In this document: positions 15,647 to 30,530 of the stretch, piece by piece
How positions within the stretch are numbered: the stretch's first letter is position 1
Layout of the letters: each line of letters opens with the position of its first letter
Assembly (NCBI RefSeq): GCF_009930815.1
Contig: NZ_CP022222.1
Location: 1,158,501-1,222,500 of the forward strand
Direction of reading: 5' to 3'
Source: Bradyrhizobium sp. CCBAU 051011
GTDB lineage: Bacteria; Pseudomonadota; Alphaproteobacteria; Rhizobiales; Xanthobacteraceae
Length of the DNA: 64,000 nt
Notes under the pieces: generated by a model
Seen by the model: only the letters and a program-made list of their open reading frames with translations
Database searches by the model: none
What the model was told of the DNA's origin: nothing
Program-made: the position numbers and the translations under genes

Positions 15647-16063
15647 TTACTTCTTCGCCGCTTGCGCGCGCAGCCGCTCTTCCTGTTCGCGCAGTTCGGG
15701 GGTGAGCGCTTCGCCGAAATCTTCCGCCGCGAACACCTGGCGAATTTCGACCTCGTCGCCATCCAGGAACGGCGCGCGCTTCATCCACGCGATCGCATCA
15801 TCCAGCGATTTGGTGTTGATCAGCCAGAAGCCGGCAACGAGGTCGCCCGAGAGCGGGAACGGACCGCGGCTGGCGCTGCCCTGCCCGCCCTGATATTTGA
15901 TCCGCGCGCCCTTCGAGGTCGGATGCAGGCCCTCGCCCGCCTCCATCACGCCGGCCTTGACCAGCTCTTCGTTGAACTTGCCCATCGCGGCCAGCAGTTC
16001 CGTACTCGGCATCACGCCGGCTTCCGTATCCTTGCTCGCCTTCACAATCACCATGAATCGCAT
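15647..16063 (-). CDS. YciI/DGPF family protein under the ECF-type promoter
   Basis: A 138-residue YciI-fold protein starting MRFMVIVKASKDTEAG after a GGAG site. It aligns with its neighbour through EELVKAGVMEAGEGLHPTSKG, WLINTKSLDDAIAWMKRAPF and EVEIRQVFAAEDFGEAL. The DGPF motif itself is changed: the equivalent position reads SRGPFPLSGDL. It has the bipartite ECF motif about 60 nt upstream, so it is a probable target of the ECF42-type sigma factor at 26903. Biochemical function is unknown. The two YciI genes here are probably duplicates. Confidence 0.9.
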   Translation of the reverse strand: MRFMVIVKASKDTEAGVMPSTELLAAMGKFNEELVKAGVMEAGEGLHPTSKGARIKYQGGQGSASRGPFPLSGDLVAGFWLINTKSLDDAIAWMKRAPFLDGDEVEIRQVFAAEDFGEALTPELREQEERLRAQAAKK

Positions 16064-16120
16064 TGTCGTGCTCCGTTATATCTCGCTGGGCGGCTACCCT
16101 TCGTCCGCCTTCATCAACAA

Positions 16121-16149
16121 GACGAGCGGGGTTTTACGGCACCGACATG
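16121..16149 (-). promoter_or_regulatory. ECF-type promoter for the YciI gene at 15647
   Basis: On the minus strand TGTCGG, 17 nt, CGTC, followed by TTG. It is the same bipartite motif, with identical spacing, as before four other units in the window. Confidence 0.7.
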
Positions 16150-16192
16150 TCGGGAAAAATTATTTCGGAAGTAATTTGACCGGCAAGCCGGT

Positions 16193-16561
16193 CTATGGCT
16201 GCTGCCTGACGAACTTGCCATCCTGGTAGGAGGCGCCGAAGTAGACGTCGATGCGCTTCACCTTGTCGCCATCGAAGACGAAGAACTCGGTATTGCGGAA
16301 ACTCTTTCCGCCCTTCGCGGTACAGCGATAGGTCACAAAGGCGGCATCGCCGTCGACGAAAATTCGCTCCAGCTCGTGCCGTTCGATCCAGTCGCTGTTC
16401 TGCCAGCAGCGCGCGAAATAGGTCGCCTTGTCGATATTGTCATCGAACGGGCTGGTGAAGCGGAATTCGTCGCTAAAGGCATCCGCGACGAACTTGCGAT
16501 CGTTGGACAGATAGGCTGCAAATATCTTGCGGATCGTGTCTGCCCTGTTGGCTTCGGCCAT
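16193..16561 (-). CDS. SnoaL-like / nuclear transport factor 2-fold protein
   Basis: The start MAEANRAD follows AGGGAG at good spacing and gives 122 residues; the upstream TTG start is unlikely. The cone-shaped NTF2 fold is suggested by IRKIFAAYLSNDRKFVADAF at the start, FRFTSPFDD, and AFVTYRCTAKGGKSFRNTEFF near the C-terminus. Such proteins are often isomerases, cyclases or simple ligand binders; the substrate is unknown. It lies 14 nt after the GST gene and is probably co-transcribed with it from the ECF-type promoter at 17250. Confidence 0.85.
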   Translation of the reverse strand: MAEANRADTIRKIFAAYLSNDRKFVADAFSDEFRFTSPFDDNIDKATYFARCWQNSDWIERHELERIFVDGDAAFVTYRCTAKGGKSFRNTEFFVFDGDKVKRIDVYFGASYQDGKFVRQQP

Positions 16562-16575
16562 CCGGCACTCCCTAC

Positions 16576-17229
16576 TCAATTTTCCTTGGGCACCATCTGG
16601 AAATACGGCTCGGCTTCCCGGAGCACGCGTGCGAAGGAAGGCCGCGCCTTCAGACGCTCAAGATAGGAAGCAAGGTGCCTCTGCGTATCGCCGAACGGCT
16701 CGGCCATGTTGCCGTAGAACAGCGACGGCGCGGCGGCGCAATCGGCGAGCGTGAAATCTGCCCCCATCGCCCAGCCGCCGCCGGCCATCTGCTGCTCGAT
16801 CATGGCATAGGAAGTCCGCAACTGCGCCCTCGCCTCCTCGACGCCGTGCGGATCGCGCTTTCCTTCCGGACGCAAGCGGTCGACCATGATCTTCTGCATC
16901 GGCAGATGCACATAGAGATCATAGAAGCGGTCGCGCAGCCGCGTCTGTAACGCCCTGTCCGGATCGGTTGGGATCAGCCGCGTCCGGCTGCCAGGGTGGC
17001 GGTCGAGATATTCGACGATGATGCTGGACTCCGGAACAATCTCGCCTCGCGCGTCATCCTGCAGCACCGGAAACTTGCCGATCCCCCACAGCTTCACCAG
17101 CGCGGCCCGGTCGCCCGGGTTGCCGAGATCGACCAGGTTCGGCGTGAACGGGATGTCGTTCTCGTAGAGCGCGATCAGCGCCTTCCAGCAGAACGAGGCG
17201 AGCGGGTGGAAATGCAGCGTGAGCGACAT
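16576..17229 (-). CDS. Glutathione S-transferase family protein
   Basis: A cytosolic GST of 217 residues with start MSLTLHFHPLASFCWK, where the Ser/Cys near residue 12 marks the active-site region. The thioredoxin-like domain (1-80) has GIGKFPVLQDD and the glutathione-binding PESSIIVEYLD. The all-helical domain (90-210) ends GADFTLADCAAAPSLFY, the conserved N-capping region. Its promoter region has the five-copy ECF motif, and the SnoaL-like gene follows. It probably conjugates or reduces electrophiles during stress; the substrate is unknown. The longer frame to 17286 is not supported. Confidence 0.92.
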   Translation of the reverse strand: MSLTLHFHPLASFCWKALIALYENDIPFTPNLVDLGNPGDRAALVKLWGIGKFPVLQDDARGEIVPESSIIVEYLDRHPGSRTRLIPTDPDRALQTRLRDRFYDLYVHLPMQKIMVDRLRPEGKRDPHGVEEARAQLRTSYAMIEQQMAGGGWAMGADFTLADCAAAPSLFYGNMAEPFGDTQRHLASYLERLKARPSFARVLREAEPYFQMVPKEN

Positions 17230-17249
17230 GGAAAACTCCCGGTTAACAA

Positions 17250-17276
17250 GACGACCCGCAACCCCGCGCGCCGACA
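17250..17276 (-). promoter_or_regulatory. ECF-type promoter for the GST-SnoaL operon
   Basis: On the minus strand TGTCGG, 17 nt, CGTC, then TTGTT. The CGTCTTGTT end is identical to that of the YciI promoter at 16121. It lies about 20 nt upstream of the GST start codon, so the leader would be very short. Confidence 0.7.
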
Positions 17277-17290
17277 TTTGCCCCAAATGA

Positions 17291-17842
17291 TTAGTTTGCG
17301 GCAGCCGGCACGTAGCGGAGGATCACGACGCCGGTCGACAACGGCCGGCTGTCGATCAGCTTCAGCTTGACCTTCTCGCCCTGCTTGAACAACGGCGTGC
17401 CGCCGCCAAGAATGACGGGGTTGACCGCGATGCGGAACTCGTCGATCAGGCCATGCGGAATCAGGCTGCTGGCGAGATCGGCGCTGCCGAACAGAAAGAT
17501 GTCCTTGGCGCTGTCGCGCTTCAGCCTGGCGACGGTGCCGGCCGCGTCGCCCTCGAACATCTGCGTGTTGTTCCAATCGGACTTCTTCACCGTGCGCGAG
17601 AAAACGAATTTCGGCGCAGCGTTCATGAAATCGGCGATCTCGCCGGTCGCGCTCGGCCAATGGTTCGCCATCAATTCATAGGTGACGCGGCCGAACAGCA
17701 ATCCACCGGCGGCGTTCAACTGCTCGATCGAGAACTGCTCCAGTTCTTTGCCCCAGACGTCGGAATGGAAGGAAATGTCGCGGTTCGGGCCTTCAACGAA
17801 GCCGTCCAGCGTCATCAGGTTCCACATGATCAGTTTCGCCAT
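17291..17842 (-). CDS. Dihydrofolate reductase family protein (RibD C-terminal fold)
   Basis: A 183-residue protein starting MAKLIMWNLMTLDGFVEG behind a strong GGAGGA site. The RibD_C/DHFR-like fold shows LLFGRVTYELMA near residue 50, FVFSRTVKKSDW, DIFLFGSADLASSLI and the C-terminal ILGGGTPLF. Such proteins are NADPH-dependent reductases of mostly unknown substrate; it is not the housekeeping folA. The HxlR regulator is divergent across a 114-nt gap with inverted repeats, so it is probably regulated by that protein. The open frame extends to 18187 only because it shadows the regulator. Confidence 0.9.
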   Translation of the reverse strand: MAKLIMWNLMTLDGFVEGPNRDISFHSDVWGKELEQFSIEQLNAAGGLLFGRVTYELMANHWPSATGEIADFMNAAPKFVFSRTVKKSDWNNTQMFEGDAAGTVARLKRDSAKDIFLFGSADLASSLIPHGLIDEFRIAVNPVILGGGTPLFKQGEKVKLKLIDSRPLSTGVVILRYVPAAAN

Positions 17843-17873
17843 CGCGTTCCTCCTTTTCAAAACCGATTGCATT

Positions 17874-17908
17874 TTGCAACTGGTTGTATCCTGGGGCAAC
17901 CGGTGCAA
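17874..17908. promoter_or_regulatory. Probable HxlR operator in the divergent promoter region
   Basis: An imperfect inverted repeat has arms TTGCAACTGGTTG and CAACCGGTGCAA with a 10-nt centre. It lies between the start codons of the DHFR-like gene and the HxlR gene, where the regulator would control both. Confidence 0.6.
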
Positions 17909-17956
17909 TATTGCAAGCAGTTTTTTTGGCCGCCCTGATCCCGCCTGGAACCGAAC

Positions 17957-18454
17957 ATGACCGACATCAGCCGCTCCGGCTGCCCGATCAATCTCTCGCT
18001 GGAAGTGCTCGGCGATAAATGGAGCCTTTTGATCATCCGCGACATGATGTTCGGCAACCGGCGGCATTTTCGCGAGTTGCTGACCAAATCGGAGGAAGGC
18101 ATCTCCTCCAACATTCTCGCCGACCGGCTGAAGACCTTGCTCGACGAGGGCGTCATCACCCGCGAGGACGATCCGACGCACAAGCAAAAGGGAATCTACT
18201 CGCTCACCGAGCAGGGCATCGAGTTGCTTCCCGTTCTCGCGCAGATGGCGGCGTGGGGTTACAAATATCTGCCGGTCAGCGAAGAACTCGGCATCCGCGC
18301 TCGGCTGCTCAGCGAGGGCGGACCGAAACTATGGGCGGAGTTCATGGATGAGTTGCGCGAGGCTCATCTCGGCACGAAGCGGCGCAAGCGAATCGGTCCA
18401 TCGGTCGGCGAGCGATTGCAGGCGGCGTATGAGAGCGTGGTGCGCCGCAAGTAA
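17957..18454 (+). CDS. HxlR family transcriptional regulator
   Basis: A 165-residue winged-helix regulator. The core is typical: CPINLSLEVLGDKWSLLIIRDMM at the start, RHFRELLTKSEEGISSNILADRL as the recognition helix region, then EDDPTHKQKGIYSLTEQG. A single cysteine at residue 9, at the position used for redox or electrophile sensing in several HxlR proteins, is present. It is divergent from a reductase gene and a palindrome lies between them, so it most likely controls that gene in response to a reactive compound. The inducer is not known. Confidence 0.92.
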   Translation: MTDISRSGCPINLSLEVLGDKWSLLIIRDMMFGNRRHFRELLTKSEEGISSNILADRLKTLLDEGVITREDDPTHKQKGIYSLTEQGIELLPVLAQMAAWGYKYLPVSEELGIRARLLSEGGPKLWAEFMDELREAHLGTKRRKRIGPSVGERLQAAYESVVRRK

Positions 18455-18683
18455 GTCGTGTCCGACTTGATTCCACACCGTGCGTTGCGCTCGTACAGCG
18501 CGTGGCGCCGCGCCGATATATCCTGCAAATCTATGTTTTTACAATGAAATCCGTCATTCTACGGAGAACACCGTTAACGCATTCTTCTTTCCTTCAGATC
18601 AAATGTACCATTCTGGGGCGACAAGGCTCGAACTGGCATTGATCACAGCCTCGCCATTTCCACCACATTGGACGGGGTCACTC

Positions 18684-20360
18684 GTGTTTCAATTTCTCAA
18701 GAATTCGTCTTCAGACAAGGCGCTGGCTGATGCGCTCGGCCGCTCGCAGGCCGTGATCGAATTCGGCACGGACGGCACTATCCTCACCGCCAACGACAAT
18801 TTCCTCAAAGCCCTCGGCTACACGCTCGGCGAAATCCAGGGCAAGCATCACAGCATGTTCGTCGACCCGTCCGAGCGCGACAGCGCGGCCTACCGCGAAT
18901 TCTGGGCGGCGCTGAAGCGCGGAGAATACCAGTCCGCCGAATACAAGCGGATCGGCAAGGGCGGAAAGGAAGTCTGGATTCAGGCGTCCTACAACCCTGT
19001 CCTCGACGGCAGCGGCAAGCCTTGCAAGGTCGTGAAGTTCGCCACCGACATCACCGAGCGCAAGATCAAGAGCATGGAGGACTCCGGCCAGATCGCCGCG
19101 ATCAGCCGTGCACAGGCGGTCATCGCGTTCGAGATGGACGGCACCATCGTCACCGCCAACGAAAACTTCCTGAAGGCGATGGGCTACACGCTCGCCGAAA
19201 TCCAGGGCAAGCATCACAGCATGTTCGTCGCGCAGGCGGAGCGCGACAGCGCGGCCTACCGGCAGTTCTGGGCGAGCCTTAACCGCGGCGAACACCAGTC
19301 GGCCGAATACAAGCGGATCGGCAAGGGCGGCCGCGAAGTCTGGATCCTCGCCTCCTACAATCCCGTGCTCGACGAGAAGGGCAAGCCGTTCCGGGTGGTG
19401 AAGTTCGCCACCGACGTCACCAGCCAGAAGCTTGCGACCGCCGATCTCGCCGGCCAGATCGCCGCCATCGGCAAGTCGCAGGCGGTGATCGAATTCAACA
19501 TGGACGGCAGCATCATCGGCGCCAACCAGAACTTCCTCAAGACCGTCGGCTACTCGCTGGACGAAATCCGCGGCCGGCACCACAGCATGTTCGTCGACCA
19601 GGCCGAGCGCGACAGCGCGGCCTACCGCGAATTCTGGGCGGCGCTCAACCGCGGCGAATACCAGGCCGCCGAATACAAGCGGATCGGCAAGAACGGCAAG
19701 GAAATCTGGATCCAGGCGTCCTACAATCCGATCCTCGATCTCAACGGCAAGCCGTTCAAGGTGGTGAAATACGCCACCGACACCACCGCGCAGGTGCTGG
19801 TTCGGATGGGCAATGAGCGCGTGCGCGGCATGATGGAATCGGTCGCCGCGGGCGCGGAGGAATTGAACACCTCGGTGCGGGAAATCTCGGAGGCCATGAC
19901 CAAGTCGCGCGAGACGGCATCGACCGCGGTCGAGCGGGTCGAGGCGGCCGACGCCCAGGCCAAGCGCCTGAACGAGGCGGCGCAGGCGATGAGCGGCATC
20001 GTGGAACTGATCGGCAACATCACAGGTCAGATCAACCTGCTGGCGCTGAACGCGACGATCGAATCGGCGCGCGCCGGCGAAGCAGGCCGCGGCTTTGCCG
20101 TGGTGGCGTCCGAGGTCAAGAACCTCGCCACTCAGGCCAAGCAGGCGACCGACAAGATCGGGCACGAGATCGGCAATCTCAATGGCATCTCCGGCGACGT
20201 CGTCGGCGCGCTCGACAGCATCAAGCAGGCGATCCAGGGCGTCAGCGAATATGTCACCGCGACCGCCGCCGCAGTCGAGGAACAGAGCACGGTGACCAGC
20301 GAGATGTCCTCCAGCATGCAACGCGCCGCTGCGGAGGCAAAGGCGATCGCGCAGCGCTAA
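18684..20360 (+). CDS. Soluble methyl-accepting chemotaxis protein with three tandem PAS domains
   Basis: A cytoplasmic chemoreceptor of 558 residues from a GTG start ([13 protein letters not shown]); earlier starts in the frame add no conserved sequence. Three PAS domains follow each other with an exact period of 122 residues, each with AVIEF-DG, NFLKA-GY, HHSMFV and SAAYREFW. The signalling domain (about residues 375-558) has the hairpin [31 protein letters not shown]. There is no membrane segment. The N-terminal PAS domains probably bind a cofactor or small ligand. A terminator follows. No other chemotaxis gene is adjacent, though two further receptors lie at 41-44 kb. Confidence 0.93.
18720..19817 (+). 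repeat. Three tandem 366-bp repeats encoding PAS domains
   Basis: The same coding unit occurs three times at a constant 366-bp period, as shown by CAGGCC/CGGTGATCG words at 18747, 19113 and 19479. Runs such as GACAGCGCGGCCTACCG are identical in all copies, so the duplications are recent or kept alike by gene conversion. Confidence 0.9.
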
Positions 20361-20385
20361 AGTTTCAGACATCGCCATCGGCTTG

Positions 20386-20420
20386 ATCCGATACGGGATG
20401 ACCGCCCGTATCGGATTTTT
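20386..20420 (+). terminator. Rho-independent terminator of the PAS-MCP gene
   Basis: A perfect 12-bp stem (ATCCGATACGGG/CCCGTATCGGAT, loop of 7) is followed by a run of T, starting 26 nt after the stop codon. Confidence 0.9.
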
Positions 20421-20510
20421 GCATGCCGAATTCTGCATCGCTGGCGCCGCGACACGCATCAGCGCTTGCGCTATAGGAGCGGGAAATCTCTCTCGCCAAC
20501 GGACCCGTCC

Positions 20511-21299
20511 ATGCCCCCCTCCCCGCAAAAAACTGCTCTCGTCACCGGCGCCGCGCGCGGCATCGGGCTTGCGACGGCAAAGCGCTTTCTCGCCGAGGGC
20601 TGGCAGGTGGCGCTGCTCGACATCGAGGGCGAGTTGCTCGACCGCGTGGTGGCCGCGCTCGCCGACCCCGACAATACGCTGGCGCTGCATTGCGACGTCT
20701 CCGATGCAGGCGCGGTGGCCAAGGCCATGGCAGCGGTGAGCGGCCGGTTCAGCCGGCTCGACGCGCTGGTCAACAATGCCGGCATTGCGGTGTTCGTGCC
20801 GTTGCTCGACACGTCCGATGAAGACTGGAACCGGATTCTGGCGGTCAACCTCACCGGTCCGTTCCTATGCACCAAGGCGGCGGCACCCTTGATGCGCGAG
20901 CATGGCGGCGGCGCGATCGTCAACATCACGTCCATTTCGGCGGTGCGTGCTTCCACCCTGCGCTCGGCCTACGGCACCAGCAAAGCCGGGCTTGCGCATC
21001 TGACTAAGCAGCTCGCGGTGGAACTGGCTTCGCTCGGCATTCGCGTCAACGCCGTGGCGCCGGGACCGGTCGAAACCGCGATGGCAAAGCAGGTGCATAC
21101 GCCGGAAATCCGCGCCGACTACCATGACGCCATCCCCCTCAACCGCTACGGCCTCGAAGAGGAACTGGCGGAGGCGATCTTCTTCCTGTGCAGCGAGCGC
21201 TCGAGCTACATCACCGGGCAGATTCTCGCCGTCGATGGCGGCTTCGACGCCGCCGGTATCGGCCTGCCGACGTTGCGCGGTCAGCGGCGCAACGGGTAG
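20511..21299 (+). CDS. Short-chain dehydrogenase/reductase (SDR)
   Basis: A classical NAD(P)-dependent SDR of 262 residues. The Rossmann motif TGAARGIG is near the N-terminus, NNAG follows at about residue 85, and the catalytic set is Ser in ITSISAVRA, then Tyr and Lys in YGTSKAG. The C-terminal SSYITGQILAVDGGF is typical of the FabG-like subfamily. The acidic residue after the second strand (LLDIEG) suggests NAD preference. The ATG at 20511 is chosen because the only upstream start is a TTG inside poorly conserved sequence. The gene stands alone; the substrate is unknown. Confidence 0.92.
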   Translation: MPPSPQKTALVTGAARGIGLATAKRFLAEGWQVALLDIEGELLDRVVAALADPDNTLALHCDVSDAGAVAKAMAAVSGRFSRLDALVNNAGIAVFVPLLDTSDEDWNRILAVNLTGPFLCTKAAAPLMREHGGGAIVNITSISAVRASTLRSAYGTSKAGLAHLTKQLAVELASLGIRVNAVAPGPVETAMAKQVHTPEIRADYHDAIPLNRYGLEEELAEAIFFLCSERSSYITGQILAVDGGFDAAGIGLPTLRGQRRNG

Positions 21300-21338
21300 T
21301 TCCGTAGTATCTTTGTCAAATCGTGGAGGGAGTTTTGT

Positions 21339-21476
21339 TTAGCGCGAGACCGTGCGCAGCAGCACGGGCTTTTCCGGCGGAACATCCGAATTGAGACCCG
21401 GCAGTCCCAAGGCGAACGCCGTCACGAGCAGCAAGACGCCCGCGCAGATCGTGCTGAGAAAAAGATGATCCATCAT
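21339..21476 (-). CDS. Small single-helix membrane protein, unknown function
   Basis: A 45-codon frame reads MMDHLFLSTICAGVLLLVTA, then FALGLPGLNSDVPPEKP and a basic end. It has one hydrophobic helix (residues 5-25) and a short polar tail. It lies downstream of cobC in the same direction, with a 160-nt gap, and no clear ribosome site is seen. It resembles the many unannotated small membrane proteins of rhizobia. Translation is not proven. Confidence 0.4.
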   Translation of the reverse strand: MMDHLFLSTICAGVLLLVTAFALGLPGLNSDVPPEKPVLLRTVSR

Positions 21477-21639
21477 CGGGCGTCAACGAATGACCGTACT
21501 TTTCGTTCCGGGCATCGGCTGCCCTCCACCTGCGGCACTCGTGAATGTGGAAAGACCTGTTCCCCTTACCCGGCGCAGCGCGCCGACCTCTCCCCGCATC
21601 CGCGGCATTGAACCATTGCGCAAGATATTTCGCGCGGCA

Positions 21640-22203
21640 TTACTTGTTCACCGCAACCACGCGCCAGCCGTTATCGAGCCGGTCGACCCGGGTCAGGGAC
21701 AGCGGATCGATCACAAAGCGCAGCGCCTGCTCGGGCTTAAGATCGAGCGCGATGGCGAGCACGGCCCGGATGGTGCCTGAATGCACGACGAGGATCACCT
21801 CGCCTGCGGGCAGCAGCGCAAGCCCTGCCCGCGCGCGATCGATCTGGTCGATGAAACTTTCGCCGCCGGGCGGCCGGTTGCCGGCGGGCGATTTCCAGAA
21901 ATCGTGATAGGCCGAACCGAGTTCGCGTTCGAGTTCGCTGTGACGCTGTCCGGTCCACGCGCCAAAGTCCTGTTCGCGAAAGGCCGGCTGATCGACCGGA
22001 TCGAGACCGAGCTTTTCGGCGGTCTCGCGCGTGCGACGGGCCGGACTGCACACCGCCAAGGCACTCGCCGGCAAGCGTGCCTTCAGCGCCGCAAAGGCTG
22101 TGGCATCGCCAAGATCGGCCGGCGCGTCGGGGCCGTGGATCACGCCGCGCGGTCCGTCAACCGGCGCATGGCGGATCAGCCAGAGATTTGTTTCCGTGCT
22201 CAA
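21640..22203 (-). CDS. cobC: Histidine phosphatase, probable alpha-ribazole phosphatase
   Basis: A 187-residue phosphoglycerate-mutase-fold phosphatase. The catalytic RHG-type motif is RHAPVDGPRG near residue 11, CSPARRTRETAE holds the second arginine, and VVHSGTIRAVLA the second histidine. CobC removes the phosphate of alpha-ribazole-5'-phosphate in the lower-ligand branch of cobalamin synthesis. The assignment rests on the 4-nt overlap with cobS upstream and on divergent cobT. By sequence alone it could be another member of the histidine phosphatase family. Confidence 0.87.
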   Translation of the reverse strand: MSTETNLWLIRHAPVDGPRGVIHGPDAPADLGDATAFAALKARLPASALAVCSPARRTRETAEKLGLDPVDQPAFREQDFGAWTGQRHSELERELGSAYHDFWKSPAGNRPPGGESFIDQIDRARAGLALLPAGEVILVVHSGTIRAVLAIALDLKPEQALRFVIDPLSLTRVDRLDNGWRVVAVNK

Positions 22204-22955
22204 GGCGCCAATCTCGCTGCAAGCAGGACCAGGATTGCGGTTTCCGCGACCTGCTCGGCGCCGCCCAATACGTCACCGGTCTGGCCGCCGATCTGCCGCA
22301 GCGCCAGCCACGCCACGGCAAACGCGGTGATGCCGGCCGCAACCGCGGCAAGAAGCGCGTTGCTCCACGGCAGAGACAACAGCGCGATGAGCAGCGCAAG
22401 GCCGGCAGCGATTGCCGCCGTCGCCGCATCGGGTTGGCCGGCGTTGCGGGCCAGCCCATCCTTGCGCGCATAGGGCAGCTGCAGGGACATCGCGGGCAAT
22501 ATGCCGCGCCCTAGTGCGTGCGCGGCGATCAAACCCGGCACGACCTGGCCGTCCGGAATTGCCGCCAGCGCGGACAATTTTGCGGCAAAGCTCACCAGCA
22601 GAATCATGGCACCGTAGGTGCCGAGCCGGCTGTCGCGCATGATCTCCAGCCTCGATTCGCGGTCGCGGCCGCCGCCGAATCCGTCGGCAATGTCGGCGAG
22701 GCCATCCTCGTGCAGCGCGCCGGTCAGGATCGCGCTGCCGCCGAGCGCCAGCGCAGCCGCCGCGAGATCGGGCACGCCGACGGATCGCAGGCCGAGACAC
22801 AACAATCCCACCACAGCGCCGATCAGCGCGCCAACGACAGGAAACATCCGGTGCGCGCGCACGAAATTTGGCGGCATGGCGCCGTCCGGATGCGGCATCG
22901 GCAATCGCGTCAGGAACGCGACGGCGGTTTTGAAGTCGTCGAACCATTCATTCAT
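22200..22955 (-). CDS. cobS: Adenosylcobinamide-GDP ribazoletransferase
   Basis: CobS is the integral membrane enzyme that joins adenosylcobinamide-GDP and alpha-ribazole in the last step of cobalamin assembly. The 251-residue protein has the family N-terminus FKTAVAFLTRLPMPHPDG, the active-site acid region HEDGLADIADGFGGGRDRE, and about six hydrophobic segments. The preceding motif ALALGGSAILTGALHEDG is typical. It overlaps the start of cobC by 4 nt and is divergent from cobT across 54 nt, so the lower-ligand pathway is grouped here. No cobalamin riboswitch is seen in this short gap. Confidence 0.95.
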   Translation of the reverse strand: MNEWFDDFKTAVAFLTRLPMPHPDGAMPPNFVRAHRMFPVVGALIGAVVGLLCLGLRSVGVPDLAAAALALGGSAILTGALHEDGLADIADGFGGGRDRESRLEIMRDSRLGTYGAMILLVSFAAKLSALAAIPDGQVVPGLIAAHALGRGILPAMSLQLPYARKDGLARNAGQPDAATAAIAAGLALLIALLSLPWSNALLAAVAAGITAFAVAWLALRQIGGQTGDVLGGAEQVAETAILVLLAARLAP

Positions 22956-24026: not shown

Positions 24027-24089
24027 CGAAACCTTGCCACATATCTCGGCGTAACTGCCGGGAGGGCAGTGCTGCCGAGGGAGCTGCGG

Positions 24090-24527
24090 ATGCAAAGGGC
24101 GGTTATCAAGCTAATCGTTGTCGCCGCCGCGCTGCCTGCGGCGATCCTGCCGGTGCGGGCCGAGATCCGCATTCTCGCCAGCCCCGGCGGCCAAGTCGGG
24201 CCGTTTCTCGAACTGTTCGATCGCGTACGCCAATCCGGCGAACGGGTGGTGATCGACGGGCCATGCCTGTCGGCGTGCACACTGGTGCTGATGACTATAC
24301 CGGAAGAGCGGATCTGCGTGACCCGCCGCGCGGTGCTGGGATTTCACGCCGCGCGCTCGATCGACGGCCGCGGCCGCATCTATGCGGAACCGGAAGCCTC
24401 GCGCGCGGTGCACGCAGCCTATCCGGCGCCGGTACGGGACTGGATCGCCCGACGCGGCGGATTGACGTCGCGGCTGCTCTTGTTGCGCGGGCGCGAGCTC
24501 GCCGCGATCTATCCAAGGTGCAGATGA
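24090..24527 (+). CDS. Exported protein with ClpP/crotonase-like motif
   Basis: The start MQRAVIKL follows GGGAG and gives 145 residues. A signal peptide ends at LPVRA-EIR. The mature part reads ILASPGGQVGPFLELFDRVRQSG and VVIDGPCLSACTLVL, where SAC is the serine-containing motif of periplasmic ClpP-like proteins of COG3904 type. FHAARSIDG could hold a second active-site region. Similar proteins are common next to unrelated genes in rhizobia and have no known substrate. A palindromic repeat follows directly and may act as its terminator. Confidence 0.78.
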   Translation: MQRAVIKLIVVAAALPAAILPVRAEIRILASPGGQVGPFLELFDRVRQSGERVVIDGPCLSACTLVLMTIPEERICVTRRAVLGFHAARSIDGRGRIYAEPEASRAVHAAYPAPVRDWIARRGGLTSRLLLLRGRELAAIYPRCR

Positions 24528-24529
24528 TT

Positions 24530-24618
24530 GTAGGGTGGGTTAGCGAAGCGTAACCCACCGAAGTCTCGATGCGCGGCTGGTCCGGCGGTGGGTTACGGCT
24601 TCGCCTAACCCACCCTAC
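24530..24618. repeat. Long inverted repeat (GTAGGGTGGGTTAGCG type)
   Basis: GTAGGGTGGGTTAGCGAAGC at 24530 is matched by the complementary text ending CCTAACCCACCCTAC at 24618, and each half is itself partly palindromic. It forms an extended cruciform between two convergent genes. This is a common bradyrhizobial interspersed repeat by recognition. Confidence 0.75.
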
Positions 24619-24631
24619 GGCACCCTACGAA

Positions 24632-25045
24632 TTACATCCCTTCCTTCGGGGAATTCACCATCCAGGGAATGCCGAACTTGTCGACGCACATGCCAAAACC
24701 GTTGGAGAAGAAGGTCTTGCCGAACGGCATCCGCACCGTGCCGCCTTCGGCCAGCGCATTGAATCGGCGCTCGGCATCCGCGGGATCCTCGACCGCGAGC
24801 GCCACCGAAATACCCTGCGGCTGATGGTAATCGCCCGGCGTCGCGTCTGATGCCATCAGCACCTCGCCGTCGATGGTGACGCGGGCATGCATGATCTTGG
24901 TTTTCCAGTCCGCCGGGATCGGCATCTCGGCGGGGCCGTCGCCGTAGGGCATCTTCGCCTCGATCCGGGCGCCGAGCGCCTTTTGATAGTAGTTCAGCGC
25001 TTCCTCGCAATTGCCGTTGAAGAAAAGATAGGGATTGACCTGCAT
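24632..25045 (-). CDS. VOC family protein (PhnB-like glyoxalase fold)
   Basis: A 137-residue protein of the PhnB-like VOC subgroup, with an AAGGAG ribosome site. It has the start VNPYLFFNGNCEEALNYY, KMPYGDGPAEMP, HARVTIDGEVLMASDA and the C-terminal FGMCVDKFGIPWMVN. The subgroup has paired beta-alpha-beta-beta-beta modules; a metal is not always bound and the substrate is usually unknown. It lies 167 nt downstream of the SRPBCC gene in the same direction and may belong to the DoxX-SRPBCC transcript. No ECF motif lies directly upstream. Confidence 0.9.
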   Translation of the reverse strand: MQVNPYLFFNGNCEEALNYYQKALGARIEAKMPYGDGPAEMPIPADWKTKIMHARVTIDGEVLMASDATPGDYHQPQGISVALAVEDPADAERRFNALAEGGTVRMPFGKTFFSNGFGMCVDKFGIPWMVNSPKEGM

Positions 25046-25212
25046 CGCTGGCTCCTTGGGTTTGACAGTGACGTTCCCCGGACGCTGCGCAGTGCGTTAG
25101 CGCGCGCTGCCGTTCCGGGGGTCCATCGGTGGGTCACGGTCTGCGGCGTACCGTTACCGGAGGTGCGTTGCATCGCCTAGGCTGCGCCGCGTCCGCCGCA
25201 CGATAGCGGCGC

Positions 25213-25749
25213 TCATTTTTCGGTGAGCGTCTTCAGATTGGCGAGACCGGCTTCGAAGTCCCGGCCGATCATGCGGTCCAGATTCATGAACACCTGTATC
25301 AACTTGGACATGAAGTTGGCCGGTCCATACATCAGCCACGTGACATGAGTGGCATCGCCCTGCGGCAGCATTGTGAACTCGGCGGTGTTGTGGCCTTCGA
25401 ACGGAGTAAAGAAATCGAGCTTGATGACGATCTTCGACGGCGCCGTGCTTTCGAGGATCTCCATGCGGCCGGAGCCGACATTCTTGTCGCCGTCCCAGGC
25501 GTAGACGGCGCCCTTGCCGCGCTCGGCGCCCTCATAGCTGCGCTTCATTGCGGGGTCCTTGTTTTCATAGGGCGACCATTTCAGCCATTGATGAAAATCA
25601 GAGATCAGCGGGAAGATCGTTTCCGGCGGCGCCTTGATGCGGATCGCGCGCTCTACGCGGAGCGTGCTCGGTTTGGTCGCGGCGATCGCGAGAACGGCTG
25701 CGACGGCGACGGCAAGTATGATGGCGATGATGGCAATGACTTCGAGCAT
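25213..25749 (-). CDS. Membrane-anchored SRPBCC (START-like) family protein
   Basis: The start MLEVIAIIAIILAV has GGAG six nt upstream and gives 178 residues (an ATG four codons earlier is possible). A single hydrophobic helix (residues 1-24) anchors the protein. The Bet v1-like ligand cavity domain follows: VERAIRIKAPPETIFPLISDFHQWLKWSPYE, SGRMEILESTAPSKIV and TMLPQGDATHVTWLMYGP. The end DRMIGRDFEAGLANLKTL is typical of polyketide-cyclase-like SRPBCC proteins. It is 37 nt downstream of the DoxX gene and probably shares its ECF-type promoter. The ligand is unknown. Confidence 0.9.
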   Translation of the reverse strand: MLEVIAIIAIILAVAVAAVLAIAATKPSTLRVERAIRIKAPPETIFPLISDFHQWLKWSPYENKDPAMKRSYEGAERGKGAVYAWDGDKNVGSGRMEILESTAPSKIVIKLDFFTPFEGHNTAEFTMLPQGDATHVTWLMYGPANFMSKLIQVFMNLDRMIGRDFEAGLANLKTLTEK

Positions 25750-25786
25750 GTTCGGCTCCATGGCGGAAAATTTTCGTTAAAACACG

Positions 25787-26200
25787 TCAGCGGCGGAAGG
25801 GGATCAGGCCACGCAGATTGCGATCCCGCAGCCATAGCCCACCCCACAGCATCAGGCCGAGGTAGAGCCCGAACAGCGTGTGCGTAAACAAGGGGCTGTC
25901 GATCCGGACATGCGAGGCGATCGCGCCGCCGAGATAGCCGGTGAGCAGGATCGCGCCGAGGATAGAGGTCGGCGGAATGGCGTAGAGCAAGGTGCAGACG
26001 ATGGTGATGGCGCCGAGGCCGCGCATCATCGCGTCGCTCGAACCGTACCCCATCCGGTCCATGGTTTCCGTGACGATCGGCCATGGCACCAGCTTGATGG
26101 CGCCGTCGACCATCAGGAACAGGATGACGAGGCCGGACAGGATGCGGCCAACCCAGCGTGCGGGATTGGAGACGGGCGCAGTCTCGGTGATGATGGTCAT
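25787..26200 (-). CDS. DoxX family membrane protein
   Basis: The start MTIITETAPVSNPARW gives 137 residues with four hydrophobic segments (about 20-38, 60-78, 83-100 and 110-128). The family features are GRILSGLVILFLMVDGAIKLV at the start and TGYLGGAIASHVRIDSPLF near the third helix. DoxX-like proteins are membrane oxidoreductase components or redox-linked proteins of poorly known role. The upstream frame (to 26314) covers the promoter and is not coding. An exact ECF-type promoter lies about 40 nt upstream. It heads the unit DoxX-SRPBCC-(VOC). Confidence 0.9.
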   Translation of the reverse strand: MTIITETAPVSNPARWVGRILSGLVILFLMVDGAIKLVPWPIVTETMDRMGYGSSDAMMRGLGAITIVCTLLYAIPPTSILGAILLTGYLGGAIASHVRIDSPLFTHTLFGLYLGLMLWGGLWLRDRNLRGLIPFRR

Positions 26201-26238
26201 GATGGACCCCGTTGTCTTGAATGGCGGTTCGAATTCAA

Positions 26239-26267
26239 GACGAGCGAGGCGGGCGGAAACCGACAGG
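26239..26267 (-). promoter_or_regulatory. ECF-type promoter for the DoxX-SRPBCC operon
   Basis: On the minus strand CCTGTCGG, 17 nt, CGTC, then TTGAATTC. The first eight bases plus TTTCCG are identical to the copy before the VOC gene (30502), as is CCTCGCT just before CGTC. Confidence 0.75.
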
Positions 26268-26418
26268 GGCTTGCATTTTTTTCGCGCTGGACCGCGACGA
26301 AAGACCTCAGTCATCCCTTCTGGATGGTGTGAGCTGCTTCATATCAGAAGCGAGCAGGCAGGAAGCAATACTACCTTTGCGTGATCTTCATCCGTTGTCC
26401 AATAGAGGTAGAATAGCG

Positions 26419-26856
26419 ATGGCCCGTTCAAAATCGCCAATGACGGCAGCGAAGCGAATGATGCTCGTGATCCCCTGCGGCTTGGCCTTGTGCTTTGCCG
26501 TTTCCGATTCGGCCTCTGCCAGCATGCTCGTTGGCTGGTGGGGCGGTAAGTGGTCGTGCAATATCGACGGCCGTTCGGCCCGCATGAGGTGGACTCCAGT
26601 AGAGGCCGGAGTCAACATGTGTGACGAGAATGGTCGGAACTGCGTCAGAAACGACAGGCTACGATGGCTGGGCGGTTTTTCCGACAATGGCTCGCGTGAG
26701 GTGAGACTGACCGACGCACGTGAGGGATCGCGAGGCGGGCTCAACTTCCGTCATGCCGACGGCAATCATTGGTATTTGGCTAAACCCGCAGGCAATAAGG
26801 CCACAGGCTGGACCACCTGGAATGGTCGGCGCTATCCGCTGTCGTGCTGGCGATAG
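26419..26856 (+). CDS. Exported protein, DUF6006-like
   Basis: A 145-residue protein whose ATG at 26419 follows AGAGGT. A signal peptide ends near SDSASASM. The mature part is rich in Trp and Gly, with GWWGGKWSCNIDGRSARMRW, DENGRNCVRNDRLRWLGGF, HWYLAKPAGNKATGWTTWNG and the final YPLSCWR. Four cysteines suggest two disulphides. The pattern resembles the DUF6006 family of small secreted proteins, with no known function. It is on the plus strand, opposite to the surrounding ECF-type units. Confidence 0.75.
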   Translation: MARSKSPMTAAKRMMLVIPCGLALCFAVSDSASASMLVGWWGGKWSCNIDGRSARMRWTPVEAGVNMCDENGRNCVRNDRLRWLGGFSDNGSREVRLTDAREGSRGGLNFRHADGNHWYLAKPAGNKATGWTTWNGRRYPLSCWR

Positions 26857-26902
26857 ATGTCGTGGGCATGCTTCAAAACCCCTTGTGGGAGAAGGAAAGA
26901 GG

Positions 26903-28174
26903 CTACTTCCCTGCCTTCTTGCCGCGGGGCTGGCTGTCGCGCTGCAGGCGGTCGAGGTGCATGCGGATGTGGGCGGCTTCGGCCGACGTGTTCGCCAGCG
27001 CAATGGCGCGGTCGAAGGCGGTGCGGGCCTCCTCGTTGCGGCCTAGCTGCATCAGGAAGGCACCGCGCACGCCGAAGTAATGGAAATAGTTCGAGAGGCG
27101 CTGGCCTAAGGGCTCGATCATGTCGAGCGCGGCCTCCGGCCCTTTCACCTTGGACACCGCAACCGCACGGTTCAGCGTCACCACCGGCGATGGCTGCATG
27201 ATCTCCAGCGCGCCATAGAGCAGGTCGATCTGGGTCCAGTCGGTATCCTCAGGCTTTTCGGCGCGGGCATGCAGCGCCGCGATCGCGGCCTGCACCTGGT
27301 ACGGCCCGCTGCGGCGATGGCGCATCGCCTTGTCGATCAGCGCCAGCCCCTCGGCGATCATCGGCTTGTTCCAGAGCGACCGGTCCTGATCGTCGAGCAG
27401 GATCACCGCGCCGTCGGCATCGAACCGCGCCGCGGAGCGCGCATGCTGCAGCAACAACAGCGCCGTGAGCCCCATGATCTCCGGCTCGCTCTGGAACAGC
27501 CGCAGCAAGAGCCGCGCCAGGCGAATGGCTTCCTCGCACAGCGGCGAGCGAATTTCAGCGGTGTCGCCTGAGGCCGAATAGCCCTCGTTGAAGATCAAAT
27601 AGATCATGGCGGCGACAGAGGTGAGGCGCTCGGAGCGCTCCACCGCGCCCGGCGTTTCGAACGGCACATCGGCATCGGCAACGCGCGCCTTTGCCCGGGT
27701 AATGCGCTGCTCCATGGCGGCTTCCGAGACCAGGAAGGCGCGCGCGATCTGCTTGACCGTGAGCCCCGAGACGATCCGCAACGCGAGCGCAATCTGCTGC
27801 GTCGCCGGCAGGTCCGGATGGCAGCAGATGAACAGCAGCCGCAGGATGTCGTCGCGGTAGTGCGAGCCGTCGAGGCGCTCGGCAAGCTGTTCCTCGGCGT
27901 CGTCGAGGTCGGAGATCGCCTCGTCCTCCGGCAGCGCCTCCTGCTTCTTGCTCCGCCTGATGTCGTCGATCGCGACATTGCGCCCGACCATGATCAGCCA
28001 CGCCGCGGGATCGCGCGGCGGGCCGTTCTGCGGCCAGCTCCTCAGCGCCCGCAGGCAGGCGTTCTGGAATGCTTCCTCGGCGGTATCGAGATTGCGGAAG
28101 TAACGCAGCAACGCACCGACCGCCTGGGGGCGAGCCGAAGTCAGCGCGGCATCGATCCAGGCGGTATCGGTCAT
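26903..28174 (-). CDS. ECF42-type RNA polymerase sigma factor with C-terminal extension
   Basis: A 423-residue sigma factor of the ECF42 type. Sigma region 2 (about residues 10-80) has AEEAFQNACLRALRSW and WLIMVGRNVAIDDIRR. Region 4 (about 115-170) has LALRIVSGLTVKQIARAFLVSEAAMEQRI. A long C-terminal extension (175-423) contains LIFNEGYSAS, typical of ECF41/42-like proteins, and TPR-like helices (FDRAIALANTSAEAAHIRMHLDRL). Group 42 genes have no classical anti-sigma factor and pair with DGPF proteins. The DGPF gene overlaps it by 4 nt upstream, and the operon has its own ECF-type promoter. Confidence 0.93.
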   Translation of the reverse strand: MTDTAWIDAALTSARPQAVGALLRYFRNLDTAEEAFQNACLRALRSWPQNGPPRDPAAWLIMVGRNVAIDDIRRSKKQEALPEDEAISDLDDAEEQLAERLDGSHYRDDILRLLFICCHPDLPATQQIALALRIVSGLTVKQIARAFLVSEAAMEQRITRAKARVADADVPFETPGAVERSERLTSVAAMIYLIFNEGYSASGDTAEIRSPLCEEAIRLARLLLRLFQSEPEIMGLTALLLLQHARSAARFDADGAVILLDDQDRSLWNKPMIAEGLALIDKAMRHRRSGPYQVQAAIAALHARAEKPEDTDWTQIDLLYGALEIMQPSPVVTLNRAVAVSKVKGPEAALDMIEPLGQRLSNYFHYFGVRGAFLMQLGRNEEARTAFDRAIALANTSAEAAHIRMHLDRLQRDSQPRGKKAGK

Positions 28175-28539
28175 GGCTGCACGCTCCCCGGCCTGAACAC
28201 GCCGACAGGGCGGATCTCATAAGCGCCACCGGGATTGGCTGCGCCCAGATCCCGCGCTACCTCGACCGCCTCGTCGAGATTCTTGCAGTCGACGACATAG
28301 AAGCCGAGCAACTGCTCCTTGGTTTCGGCATAGGGTCCGTCGAGTACCAGCGGCGGATCGTCCTTGCGCAGCGTGGTCGCCGCCGTCGTCGGCAATAGCC
28401 GCGCCACCGGGCCGAGCCGGCCCTGCTTGGCGAGTTTTTCCTGTACGACCGCAAGCTTCGTCATGACCGCGGCGTCCTGTTCCTTGGTCCAGGAACCGAC
28501 ATGGTCTTCGTCGTGATAGCAAAGGATGGCGTAAAGCAT
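28171..28539 (-). CDS. YciI/DGPF protein, partner of the ECF42 sigma factor
   Basis: A 122-residue YciI-fold protein with the diagnostic LVLDGPYAETKEQLLGFYV block (about residues 64-82) and the start MLYAILCYHDEDHVGSW. Its stop overlaps the sigma-factor start (ATGA), so the two are translationally coupled. In the ECF42 group this arrangement is conserved, with DGPF genes as the usual direct targets. Whether the DGPF protein senses a signal or acts as an enzyme is not established. Its promoter matches the motif found before four other units. Confidence 0.93.
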   Translation of the reverse strand: MLYAILCYHDEDHVGSWTKEQDAAVMTKLAVVQEKLAKQGRLGPVARLLPTTAATTLRKDDPPLVLDGPYAETKEQLLGFYVVDCKNLDEAVEVARDLGAANPGGAYEIRPVGVFRPGSVQP

Positions 28540-28567
28540 GGCGGCAAAGCATCTCCGTTGTCATGAT

Positions 28568-28596
28568 GACGAACGATTATGCCCGGAGCCGACAGG
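28568..28596 (-). promoter_or_regulatory. ECF-type promoter of the DGPF-ECF42 operon (autoregulatory)
   Basis: On the minus strand CCTGTCGG, 17 nt, CGTC, then ATCATGAC; the copy at 30502 has CGTCTTCATGAC. Presence before the sigma operon itself implies positive autoregulation. Confidence 0.75.
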
Positions 28597-28621
28597 GGCG
28601 TCGAAGAAATTTTGAGATGTT

Positions 28622-28837
28622 TCAGGGACCGATGATCGGAGGCGGCGGCGGATTGAAGTGCCGGCAGGTGTGGACGATCGCCTTGGAACAAAGGCTGCAC
28701 ACGGCGAGAACCAGAAGGAAGGTCTTTGCCGTTCTCCAGAAGGCTTCGATCCCGGTGATGCCCCTGCTGCGGCTGTTCCGCCAGGAAAGCGCCAGCGAGA
28801 CCGCTACCACTGCGGCAATGACAGCCGCTATCACCAT
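28622..28837 (-). CDS. Small hypothetical membrane protein with uncertain start
   Basis: A 71-residue frame from an internal ATG reads MVIAAVIAAVVAVSLALSW, then a short basic loop and LLVLAVCSLCSKAIVH, followed by HFNPPPPPIIGP. That gives two hydrophobic helices. The best ribosome site in the area (AGGGAGG, then ATG at about 28876) is in a different frame and ends after 15 codons, so either the true start is not canonical or a frameshift separates them. It is upstream of the DGPF promoter. I recognise no family. Confidence 0.45.
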   Translation of the reverse strand: MVIAAVIAAVVAVSLALSWRNSRSRGITGIEAFWRTAKTFLLVLAVCSLCSKAIVHTCRHFNPPPPPIIGP

Positions 28838-28975
28838 GACAAGCCATGATTGGCGCGGAACGGCATCAATTTGCGCATCTGAAGCCTCCCTTGCTGGATC
28901 AAAGGAGGCTAGAGAAGCGGTTCGATCCGCGATGTGAGACGGGTCACGCCGGATGGCGAGGCGAAAGGAATGGCA

Positions 28976-29941
28976 ATGACGAAGGGTGCGCTCGCGCTGC
29001 TGGTGCATGGCGGGACTGAAAACTGGTCGCCACAGCGCTGGAAGGACCGGTTCGACGAAGTTTGCGCGGGGCGGCCCGTGCTGCAATTGCCGAGCACGTC
29101 GTTCGACCCGGCCGATGTACATTACGCCGCGGTGTGGAAGCCACAGCCGGGCGAGCTTGCCGCCTTTCCCAATCTGCGCGTCATCTTCAATCTCGGCGCC
29201 GGCGTCGATGCGCTGATGGCCGATCGTTCATTGCCCGACGTGCCGCTGGTGCGCGTCGCCGTCACCGACCTGACCGCGCGGATGACCGAATATGTCGTGC
29301 TGCATGTGTTGATGCATCACCGACAGGAACTCTATTTGCGGGAGTCGCAGCGCGAAAAACGCTGGGCGCCGAAATCGCAATGGGCGGCGGGGGCTGTTAC
29401 CGTCGGCATCATGGGGCTTGGCACGCTCGGCGCCGATGCCGCCGACGTGCTGCGGCGCCTCGGCTTCCGCGTCTGTGGCTGGAGCCGAAGCCCCAAGGCC
29501 ATCGACGGCATCGATTGCTTTCATGGCGAAGCACAGTTCGACGCGTTCCTGCGGCGAACCGACATCCTGGTCTGCCTGCTGCCGCTGACGCCGGAGACGC
29601 GACACATTCTCAATCGCGACGTTTTCAGGAAACTGAACCGGACCAGCCCGCTCGGCGCGCCGGTCGTGATCAACGCCGGCCGCGGCGGCCTGCAGAACGA
29701 GGCCGACATCCTGCAATGCCTCGACGACGGCACGCTCGGTGGCGCCTCGCTCGACGTCTACGCGACCGAGCCGTTGCCCGCCGACAGCCGGTTCTGGACC
29801 CACCCAAAAGTGGTACTGACCCCGCACAACGCCGCCGACACCGATCCAGACGAGATATCAAAATATGTCGCGCAGCAGATCGCACGGTTTGAGGCCGGCG
29901 GGGCACTGGAGAATGTGGTGGATCGCGGACGGGGGTATTGA
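28976..29941 (+). CDS. D-isomer-specific 2-hydroxyacid dehydrogenase (GhrA-like)
   Basis: A 321-residue NAD(P)-dependent reductase of the glyoxylate/hydroxypyruvate reductase A type. The start MTKGALALLVHGG has AAAGGA six nt upstream. The nucleotide fold (about residues 135-160) has VGIMGLGTLGADAADVLRRLGF and CGWSRSPK. Catalytic positions are the Arg in VINAGRGG, the Glu in YATEPLP and the His in VLTPHNAADTDP. It probably reduces glyoxylate or hydroxypyruvate. It is alone on the plus strand, with a common inverted repeat after it that may end its transcript. Confidence 0.92.
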   Translation: MTKGALALLVHGGTENWSPQRWKDRFDEVCAGRPVLQLPSTSFDPADVHYAAVWKPQPGELAAFPNLRVIFNLGAGVDALMADRSLPDVPLVRVAVTDLTARMTEYVVLHVLMHHRQELYLRESQREKRWAPKSQWAAGAVTVGIMGLGTLGADAADVLRRLGFRVCGWSRSPKAIDGIDCFHGEAQFDAFLRRTDILVCLLPLTPETRHILNRDVFRKLNRTSPLGAPVVINAGRGGLQNEADILQCLDDGTLGGASLDVYATEPLPADSRFWTHPKVVLTPHNAADTDPDEISKYVAQQIARFEAGGALENVVDRGRGY

Positions 29942-29945
29942 TCTC

Positions 29946-30032
29946 CGTCATTGCGAGCGAAGCGAAGCAATCCATCTCTCCACACGTGCGGATGGATGGA
30001 TTGCTTCGTCGCTTGCGCTCCTCGCAATGACG
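29946..30032. repeat. Inverted repeat of the CGTCATTGCGAGCGAAGCGAAG type
   Basis: CGTCATTGCGAGCGAAGCGA at 29946 is complementary to GCGCTCCTCGCAATGACG at its right end, with CAATCCA and TGGATTG inside. This repeat type is widespread in Proteobacteria. It separates two convergent genes and may serve as a terminator. Confidence 0.75.
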
Positions 30033-30038
30033 GAGCCC

Positions 30039-30467
30039 CTACCCCTTCGCCGGAAGATTGTGCGCAAAGCTCCAGGAATGGCCGAACGGGTCCATGATGC
30101 GGGCGTAGCGGTCGCCCCAGAATGAATCCCACGGCTCCAGCGTGACGGTGGCGCCGGCGTCCTTCGCGCGCTTCACGGCGGCATCGCAGTTCTCGACTTC
30201 GAGATGCATGGTAACCGAGGTGCCTTTGATCTGGTCGGGCGGAAACACCGCGTCCACGCCGTGGGAGCCGCGATGCTCGGGAAAGTCGTCCATGACGAAA
30301 ATCCGCGCGCCGTTGACGCGGATCTCCGAATGCATCAGCCGCCTGCCGTCCTCGGCCGGCATCCGCATGGTTTCGGTGGCGCCGAGCGCCTTCTTGTAGA
30401 ACTCGAGCGCGGCGTTCGCGTCGCGAACGACGAGATGGGGGGTGACGATCTGGACGGGTTCGGTCAT
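30039..30467 (-). CDS. VOC family protein (PhnB-like) under the ECF-type promoter
   Basis: A 142-residue VOC protein starting MTEPVQIVTPHLVVRD. It has ANAALEFYKKALGA, HSEIRVNGARIFVMDDFPEH, TMHLEVENCDAAVKRAKDAG and the C-terminal RYARIMDPFGHSWSFA. The pattern is the PhnB-like subgroup, usually without a known reaction. The promoter motif upstream is nearly identical to that of the DoxX operon, which makes it a probable ECF42 target. A TetR gene lies upstream in the same direction but has its own start region. Confidence 0.92.
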   Translation of the reverse strand: MTEPVQIVTPHLVVRDANAALEFYKKALGATETMRMPAEDGRRLMHSEIRVNGARIFVMDDFPEHRGSHGVDAVFPPDQIKGTSVTMHLEVENCDAAVKRAKDAGATVTLEPWDSFWGDRYARIMDPFGHSWSFAHNLPAKG

Positions 30468-30501
30468 TTCGAGGTTCCTCCTTTTTGGAGCACGTCATGA
30501 A

Positions 30502-30530
30502 GACGAGCGAGGAAACCGGAAACCGACAGG
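30502..30530 (-). promoter_or_regulatory. ECF-type promoter for the VOC gene
   Basis: On the minus strand CCTGTCGG, 17 nt, CGTC, then TTCATGAC, about 35 nt upstream of the start codon. It matches the DoxX copy at nearly every position from CCTGTCGGTTTCCG to the CGTC box. Confidence 0.75.

Follow-up and report, generated by a model that had tools for sequence, protein, structure and literature searches.

The ECF42 locus and its five predicted promoters

Here we describe a predicted regulon of an extracytoplasmic function (ECF) sigma factor of group ECF42 in Bradyrhizobium sp. CCBAU 051011, whose genome is a single 9.1 Mb contig (NZ_CP022222.1). The analysed stretch of 64 kb (contig positions 1,158,501 to 1,222,500) is hereafter called the window. 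The motif TGTCGG-N17-CGTC has exactly five matches in the window, all on the minus strand (16121, 17250, 26239, 28568 and 30502), where an earlier reading of the sequence (the original prediction) had placed them. The chance expectation is 0.29 (mean of shuffled sequences), and five matches were reached in 0 of 100 shuffles. The prediction that an ECF42 regulon reads these five promoters is well supported at the sequence level, because the motif is the same as that published for RpoE10, the ECF42 factor of Sinorhizobium meliloti (PMC6180224, Table 1), the sites in relatives lie before rather than inside genes, and the motif pairs with the sigma factor of the window. The genes and putative promoters are as follows, with distances counted from the last motif base to the start codon.

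15647..16063, minus strand: YCII-domain protein (Pfam)
16121..16147, minus strand: putative promoter of the YCII gene; motif match, 57 nt before the start at 16063
16193..16579, minus strand: SnoaL_2 protein (Pfam), overlapping the stop of the next gene
16576..17229, minus strand: glutathione S-transferase (GST)-like protein (Pfam), 217 aa from ATG
17250..17276, minus strand: putative promoter of GST-SnoaL; motif match, 20 nt before the start at 17229; 23 GST sites in 23/80 relatives' loci (see below)
24632..25045, minus strand: PhnB-like VOC protein (PF06983/PF00903), likely third gene of the DoxX operon, judged from order and strand
25213..25761, minus strand: SRPBCC (Polyketide_cyc2) protein (Pfam)
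25787..26200, minus strand: DoxX-like protein (PF13564)
26239..26265, minus strand: putative promoter of the DoxX-SRPBCC-VOC run; motif match, 38 nt before the start at 26200; 34 DoxX sites in 34/80 relatives' loci
26903..28174, minus strand: ECF42 sigma factor, 423 aa; Pfam sigma70_r2, sigma70_r4_2 and a DUF6596/TPR-like C-terminal extension
28171..28539, minus strand: YCII/DGPF-type protein (PF03795), first gene of the sigma operon; translation reads DGPY
28568..28594, minus strand: putative promoter of the DGPF-sigma operon; -35 TGTCGG at 28589-28594, -10 CGTC at 28568-28571, 28 nt before the start at 28539
30039..30467, minus strand: VOC/glyoxalase-superfamily protein (Pfam Glyoxalase)
30502..30528, minus strand: putative promoter of the VOC gene; motif match, 34 nt before the start at 30467

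The distances of 20-57 nt fall within the expected 15-60 nt, and the spacing is N17 in 5/5 sites. The fuller form TGTCGG-N16-TCGTC fits each of them, and the longer match claimed for three copies is found in the DoxX, DGPF and VOC promoters, which read CCTGTCGG. With up to two mismatches allowed, the window gave 31 matches against 30.2 expected and the signal was lost. One EcfG-like site, GGAAC-N16-CGTT, falls in the gap that separates the two halves of the gene cluster (21485-21509, minus strand; contig positions 1179985-1180009).

Pfam assigns the genes to the families that had been named for them: YCII (two genes), SnoaL_2, GST, Polyketide_cyc2, DoxX_2, sigma70_r2/r4_2 with DUF6596, and Glyoxalase. 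Two units differ in detail from the original prediction. A YCII/DGPF-type gene indeed adjoins the sigma gene, but the eponymous motif is DGPY in this genome; and both genes of the DoxX-SRPBCC unit were confirmed, but the PhnB-like VOC gene comes next on the same strand. The sigma factor itself shows several features of ECF42. Its only sigma domains in Pfam are PF04542 and PF08281, with no sigma3, and its C-terminal extension of ~200 residues matches PF20239 (DUF6596) at 119.7 bits, with TPR_2 only below the cut-off. The adjoining PF03795 gene is expected of this group, and a promoter of the form TGTCG./CG(A,T)C stands in front of its own operon.

The motif is conserved in front of genes

To describe the motif in relatives, we used the loci around orthologs of the window sigma factor (best 80 of 316 candidates, 1.47 Mb); the named records with such orthologs are mostly from Bradyrhizobium, with identity up to 98% (B. 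lablabi). The N17 motif occurs 227 times on the sigma strand of these loci and 0 times on the opposite strand. The neighbouring spacings are rare on both strands (sigma/other strand: 16, 3/5; 18, 8/3), and among the control spacings 13 (46/10) and 24 (41/9) are the most frequent. The original prediction had named occurrence inside genes as often as before them as the outcome that would speak against it; instead, 218 of the 227 N17 sites precede a called gene and 2 fall within one. At the 15 control spacings (10-16 and 18-25), 13 of 216 sites precede a gene and 191 fall within one. Because the 80 loci are related, their sites do not count as separate events, though the same kinship applies to the control spacings; distinct sequences number 195 among the 227 N17 sites and 163 among the 216 control sites.

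The families downstream of the N17 sites are YCII (90, of which 53 begin with ML like the sigma-operon protein), DoxX (34), GST (23), SRPBCC (22), RibD_C (17), SnoaL (9), VOC (6 and 3) and small groups. For each of the eight clusters named, one representative was confirmed by Pfam and the remaining members were assigned by similarity. A cluster of 4 (540 aa, with sigma in a long frame) represents the DGPF-sigma operon. Another, of 2 sequences (330 aa), is probably spurious, as are five poorly scoring singletons; no gene was available for 8 sites near a locus end.

The sigma-operon promoter reads TGTCGG-N17-CGTC in 58 of the 80 relatives and TGTCGG-N17-CGTT in 19 (77/80 TGTCGG). The remaining three, also N17, are TGTAGG..CGTC (2) and CGTCGG..CGTT (1), so that 80/80 end in GG. 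The spacer of this promoter (window 28568-28594 and orthologs) is itself conserved as GGGCATAATCG; a CATAAT box within it may belong to an overlapping housekeeping promoter. The sequence upstream includes an A/T tract, AAATTTCTT. In the CGTT-type promoters (e.g. L122, L137, L158) an inverted repeat, CGTTC-N6/7-GAACG, was seen by eye over the -10 and the likely transcription start.

The motif is also denser in genomes with a sigma factor of the window type, referred to below as G-type. Among 61 family genomes, TGTCGG-N16-TCGTC occurs at 1.00/Mb with a G-type sigma factor (n=22) versus 0.49/Mb without (n=39; one-sided Mann-Whitney p 0.004, or 0.007 without the Bradyrhizobium sp. CCBAU 051011 genome, kinship ignored). 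Here, G-type means a similarity of at least 430 bits to the window sigma factor, a cut-off picked after the promoters had been seen, and one partial match (G021) was left unread and counted among the genomes without.

Sites across the genome

Genome-wide, TGTCGG-N17-CGTC has 34 matches, compared with 17 for the pattern read backwards. By an automatic coding caller, trained on the long open frames of relatives, 14 of these 34 sites are directly upstream of a gene versus 2 of 28 at other spacings, the first 28 along the chromosome (Fisher p 0.003). Five of the 14 belong to the window. Eight others precede genes for VOC (447701), DUF899 (5919199), a second DGPF-type YCII (6095998), another YCII (6374219) and AHSA1/SRPBCC (6682319) proteins, an apparently frame-broken GST (6599612) and ku (2940700, 5406469). 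Two further sites were added by eye, at a truncated ku copy (164349) and at a GST gene preceded by what reads, by eye, as the peptide of a RibD_C-like remnant (1517488). The regulon is not confined to the five promoters of the window, as 10 more sites outside it lie by genes or remnants, three of them at ku (one truncated).

Variants of the motif behave differently. TGTCGH-N16-TCGWC is upstream of genes at 5 of 52 sites, two of which are the own operons of the paralogs described below. The CGTT variant of the -10 was found upstream at 0 of 30 sites in this genome (30 of 32 matches read), though the sigma operons of relatives use CGTT. Counts of spacings over the whole genome were tried as a test and set aside: TGTCGG-N(12-22)-TCGTC gives 229 matches over 11 spacings, 14 at the right one. 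Such counts are uninformative because each half of the motif occurs often within coding DNA; what discriminates is where a site lies with respect to genes.

Three ECF42 paralogs and three promoter dialects

The genome encodes three DUF6596 sigma factors, whose own-operon promoters are TGTCGG..CGTC (window), TGTCGT..CGAC and TGTCGA..CGTC. We refer to these versions as the G, T and A dialects, after the sixth -35 base. A maximum likelihood tree was built from 68 ECF42 sigma factors collected by family and class searches, 49 of which could be labelled by their promoters (23 G, 22 A, 3 T and 1 TGTCAG). One 29-row clade with 100/100 support holds 22 of the 23 G labels, and the three T labels form one clade, also with 100/100 support; the sixth -35 base follows the sigma phylogeny. 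Taking the best match of each Bradyrhizobium genome added 28 new loci; here the promoter is TGTCGT-N17-CGAC in 26/26 T-type and TGTCGA-N17-CGTC in 2/2 A-type cases, and all T-type promoters seen have A as the third -10 base. With the strict patterns applied here, many sites before genes are found for the G dialect alone.

That the window motif goes with the window sigma factor, and not with its two ECF42 paralogs, is well supported by these pairings. The three circuits are likely insulated from one another, because the own operons of the other two paralogs carry TGTCGT..CGAC and TGTCGA..CGTC. The arrangement of three ECF42 paralogs, each with its own promoter version, is apparently new: neither the genus-wide three-way dialect nor the proposed composite ku promoter described below was met in the literature searched, though part may be in print already.

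Candidate residues for the sixth -35 base

The sigma4 recognition helix of the labelled G-clade sigma factors reads x(M/I)EQR(I/L)TRAK, with E155 and T159 in 22/22. In A/T-type sigma factors, position 155 is Ala, Ser or Gly (Glu in 0/25) and position 159 is mostly Val. The sigmaE residues R173 and R176 contact G-35, and its R171 touches the base at -31 of the template strand (PMC6713349). When R157/R160 are set on sigmaE R173/R176 in a by-eye alignment, E155 takes the place of R171, and the sixth -35 base corresponds to -31. For this alignment we used what we take to be the sigmaE sequence. Glu155 and Thr159 are thus probably the residues that choose G at the sixth -35 base.

Several observations count against this assignment. 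One G-clade member, L191, has Gln155/Ser159, with no TGTCGG found; Glu155 also occurs outside the G clade in two unlabelled sigma factors, L253 (Glu155/Val159) and L217; and the residue-base pairing follows clades, so that the residues are not independent of phylogeny. For the -10, R71, which accompanies CGAC in 9/10 sigma factors, is a weaker hint. Residues distinguishing the A from the T dialect were not found among the sigma factors compared.

A possible composite promoter at ku

All 31 genomes of the genus carry ECF42 factors, and 30 of the 31 gave a locus of ku, which acts in non-homologous end joining (NHEJ), in our search (one per genome). The close ku subfamily (at least 87% identity) comprises 22 loci, of which 20 have TGTCGG-N17-CGTC, overlapping an EcfG-like promoter; the 8 more distant ku genes of the genus lack the motif. 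When only GGAAC and CTTGA serve as anchors, TGTC ahead of GGAAC and TCGT ahead of the CTTGA block are invariant in these 20 promoters, and flanks and spacer vary. Anchoring failed for the remaining two close promoters (L315 and L324). Outside the genus, 28 ku loci were considered; no start was found for one, and the promoters of the other 27 all lack the ECF42 motif. Five of these 27 are from genomes with a G-type sigma factor (L334, L335, L336, L338, L342) and keep GGAAC...TTGA with no TGTC. The overlap of the two motifs suggests dual control of ku in the close subfamily, and the distribution fits the gain of a composite promoter in Bradyrhizobium.

The EcfG consensus GGAA[CT]-N16/17-[CG]GTT was found in 0 of 30 genus ku loci; we take GGAAC-N16-17-CGTT to be the EcfG form. 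The close subfamily fits only the looser GGAAC-N18-TT, presumably the form used by S. meliloti RpoE2. The truncated ku copy (contig positions 162849-165875; L001/L064) has a nearly identical promoter region and seems to have arisen by partial duplication of the ku locus at 2.94 Mb. In the second ku subfamily of the genus (L326-L333), the sequence upstream is unrelated and in part conserved (GGTGGTAT...TGTTGCGTTT-like), with no EcfG/ECF42 pattern.

A model and its alternatives

Our preferred explanation, which we consider highly probable from the sequence comparisons, is that the window ECF42 sigma factor, using the G dialect, drives a TGTCGG-N17-CGTC regulon insulated from its two paralogs. 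In this model, the sigma factor would direct RNA polymerase to the motif before its own DGPF-sigma operon, to three neighbouring units (DoxX-SRPBCC-VOC, GST-SnoaL and VOC) and to the YCII gene. Further targets would be a small scattered set, mostly of the same enzyme families, with a putative role in detoxification. By analogy with published ECF42 work, the C-terminal DUF6596/TPR extension and the DGPF/YCII partner would probably control activity jointly, in place of a membrane anti-sigma factor.

Several points weigh against this explanation. The upstream call at 5768042 (L021) overlaps a real start codon and is probably a chance match. Outside the window the enrichment is weak (9/29 vs 2/28, p 0.04), and weaker without the two ku sites (7/27, p 0.08). 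No recognisable promoter was seen for 19/68 sigma factors, including 7/29 in the G clade (one with only 200 nt upstream), and one G label (L271) lies outside the G clade, with an unusual distance and a CGTT box; it is probably not the promoter of that sigma factor. In S. meliloti, the YCII-rpoE10 operon, where the motif overlaps the mapped start, is unresponsive to RpoE10 overexpression, and an increase of at least twofold was seen for four genes only (PMC6180224). The autoregulation in the original prediction is plausible from the motif before the DGPF-sigma operon, but the equivalent operon of S. meliloti does not bear it out. As a whole, that prediction stands in part: the regulon over five promoters is well supported, and the novelty of the targets and autoregulation fall short.

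It is very hard to maintain that a repressor or activator, and not a sigma factor, recognises the motif. The conserved spacer of the sigma-operon promoter does indicate that other constraints act there, but the motif is made of two blocks kept exactly 17 nt apart and always in the same orientation (227 to 0), and in S. meliloti it is reported as a -35/-10 pair upstream of the starts for two of three promoters, the third overlapping the start (PMC6180224). We also consider it unlikely, though less so, that all three paralogs share promoters in one merged regulon, with the base differences as tolerated drift. An ECF factor can tolerate single promoter mismatches, and TGTCG-N17-CG is common to all three motifs. 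However, drift would blur the sixth -35 base, which is fixed in each group (T 26/26, A 2/2, and all 80 G-type promoters ending in GG, 77 of them TGTCGG); the T-type -10 always has A as its third base; and TGTCGH-N16-TCGWC is rarely upstream of genes besides the paralogs' own operons.

For ku, the alternative comes close to an even chance: the sites may be plain EcfG promoters, their likeness to ECF42 promoters being due to chance or to an extended EcfG element. The ku gene of S. meliloti is under EcfG control, and the non-genus ku promoters, including the five in G-type genomes, do without the ECF42 motif. In contrast, TGTC and TCGT are invariant in all 20 anchored Bradyrhizobium promoters despite varying flanks, and a leading TGTC is not the rule at EcfG-like sites, being found ahead of GGAAC-N16/17-CGTT at 0 of 28 non-coding sites in the genome (30 of 230 matches read). 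If the composite promoter, TGTCGGAAC-N14-CGTCTTGA, does combine overlapping ECF42 and general-stress EcfG elements, either sigma factor could start transcription.

It is tempting to speculate, at somewhat less than even probability, that an ancestral ECF42 circuit gave rise to three insulated circuits in the Bradyrhizobium lineage, and that the G factor built a genus-wide detoxification regulon and captured ku via the composite promoter. Such a split would have taken the change of a single -35 base (A to G or A to T) together with that of one -10 base. The case bears on the standing problem of how sigma factors that arose by duplication keep off one another's promoters: within one genus, a single sigma group provides three paralogs, each with a fixed promoter dialect, as well as candidate residues. 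The poorly understood YCII, DoxX, SnoaL and VOC genes would gain a shared regulator, and error-prone end joining in soil bacteria would receive input from a second sigma factor.

Comparison with known systems

The closest known system is RpoE10 of S. meliloti, where TGTCGG-N17-CGTC also precedes the YCII-sigma operon, the SMc01149-SMc01148 operon (hydrophobic-ligand domain and glyoxalase-like) and SMb20475 (glyoxalase-like) (PMC6180224; N17 counted here from Table 1). The gene order YCII-sigma-SRPBCC-VOC, as judged from locus tags, resembles that of the window. RpoE10 overexpression raised 6 genes, among them one hydrophobic-ligand-domain gene, which we read as SRPBCC-like, and two glyoxalase-like genes (PMC6180224). 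The wider target set, claimed as new, thus holds more families here but was partly known already. Since the motif is the same and the targets overlap, the window regulon is a larger relative of the RpoE10 regulon. Compared with the published S. meliloti set, the genome described here adds DoxX, GST, SnoaL, a separate YCII gene, DUF899 and the ku sites, and has two more ECF42 paralogs with other dialects.

The Streptomyces venezuelae ECF42 factors (Sven_0747, 4377 and 7131; PMC8999054) are alike in the TPR-rich sigma extension, the YCII neighbour and the presence of several paralogs per cell. The G and T dialects are variants seen here. We take the Streptomyces motif to be TGTCGA with CG(A/T)C, which would equal the A dialect.

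Finally, in the position-specific ECF code, sigma2 and sigma4 residues predict the -10 and -35 bases (Todor 2020, as described in PMC8103513). The present case is a natural three-way split of one ECF group within one genome.

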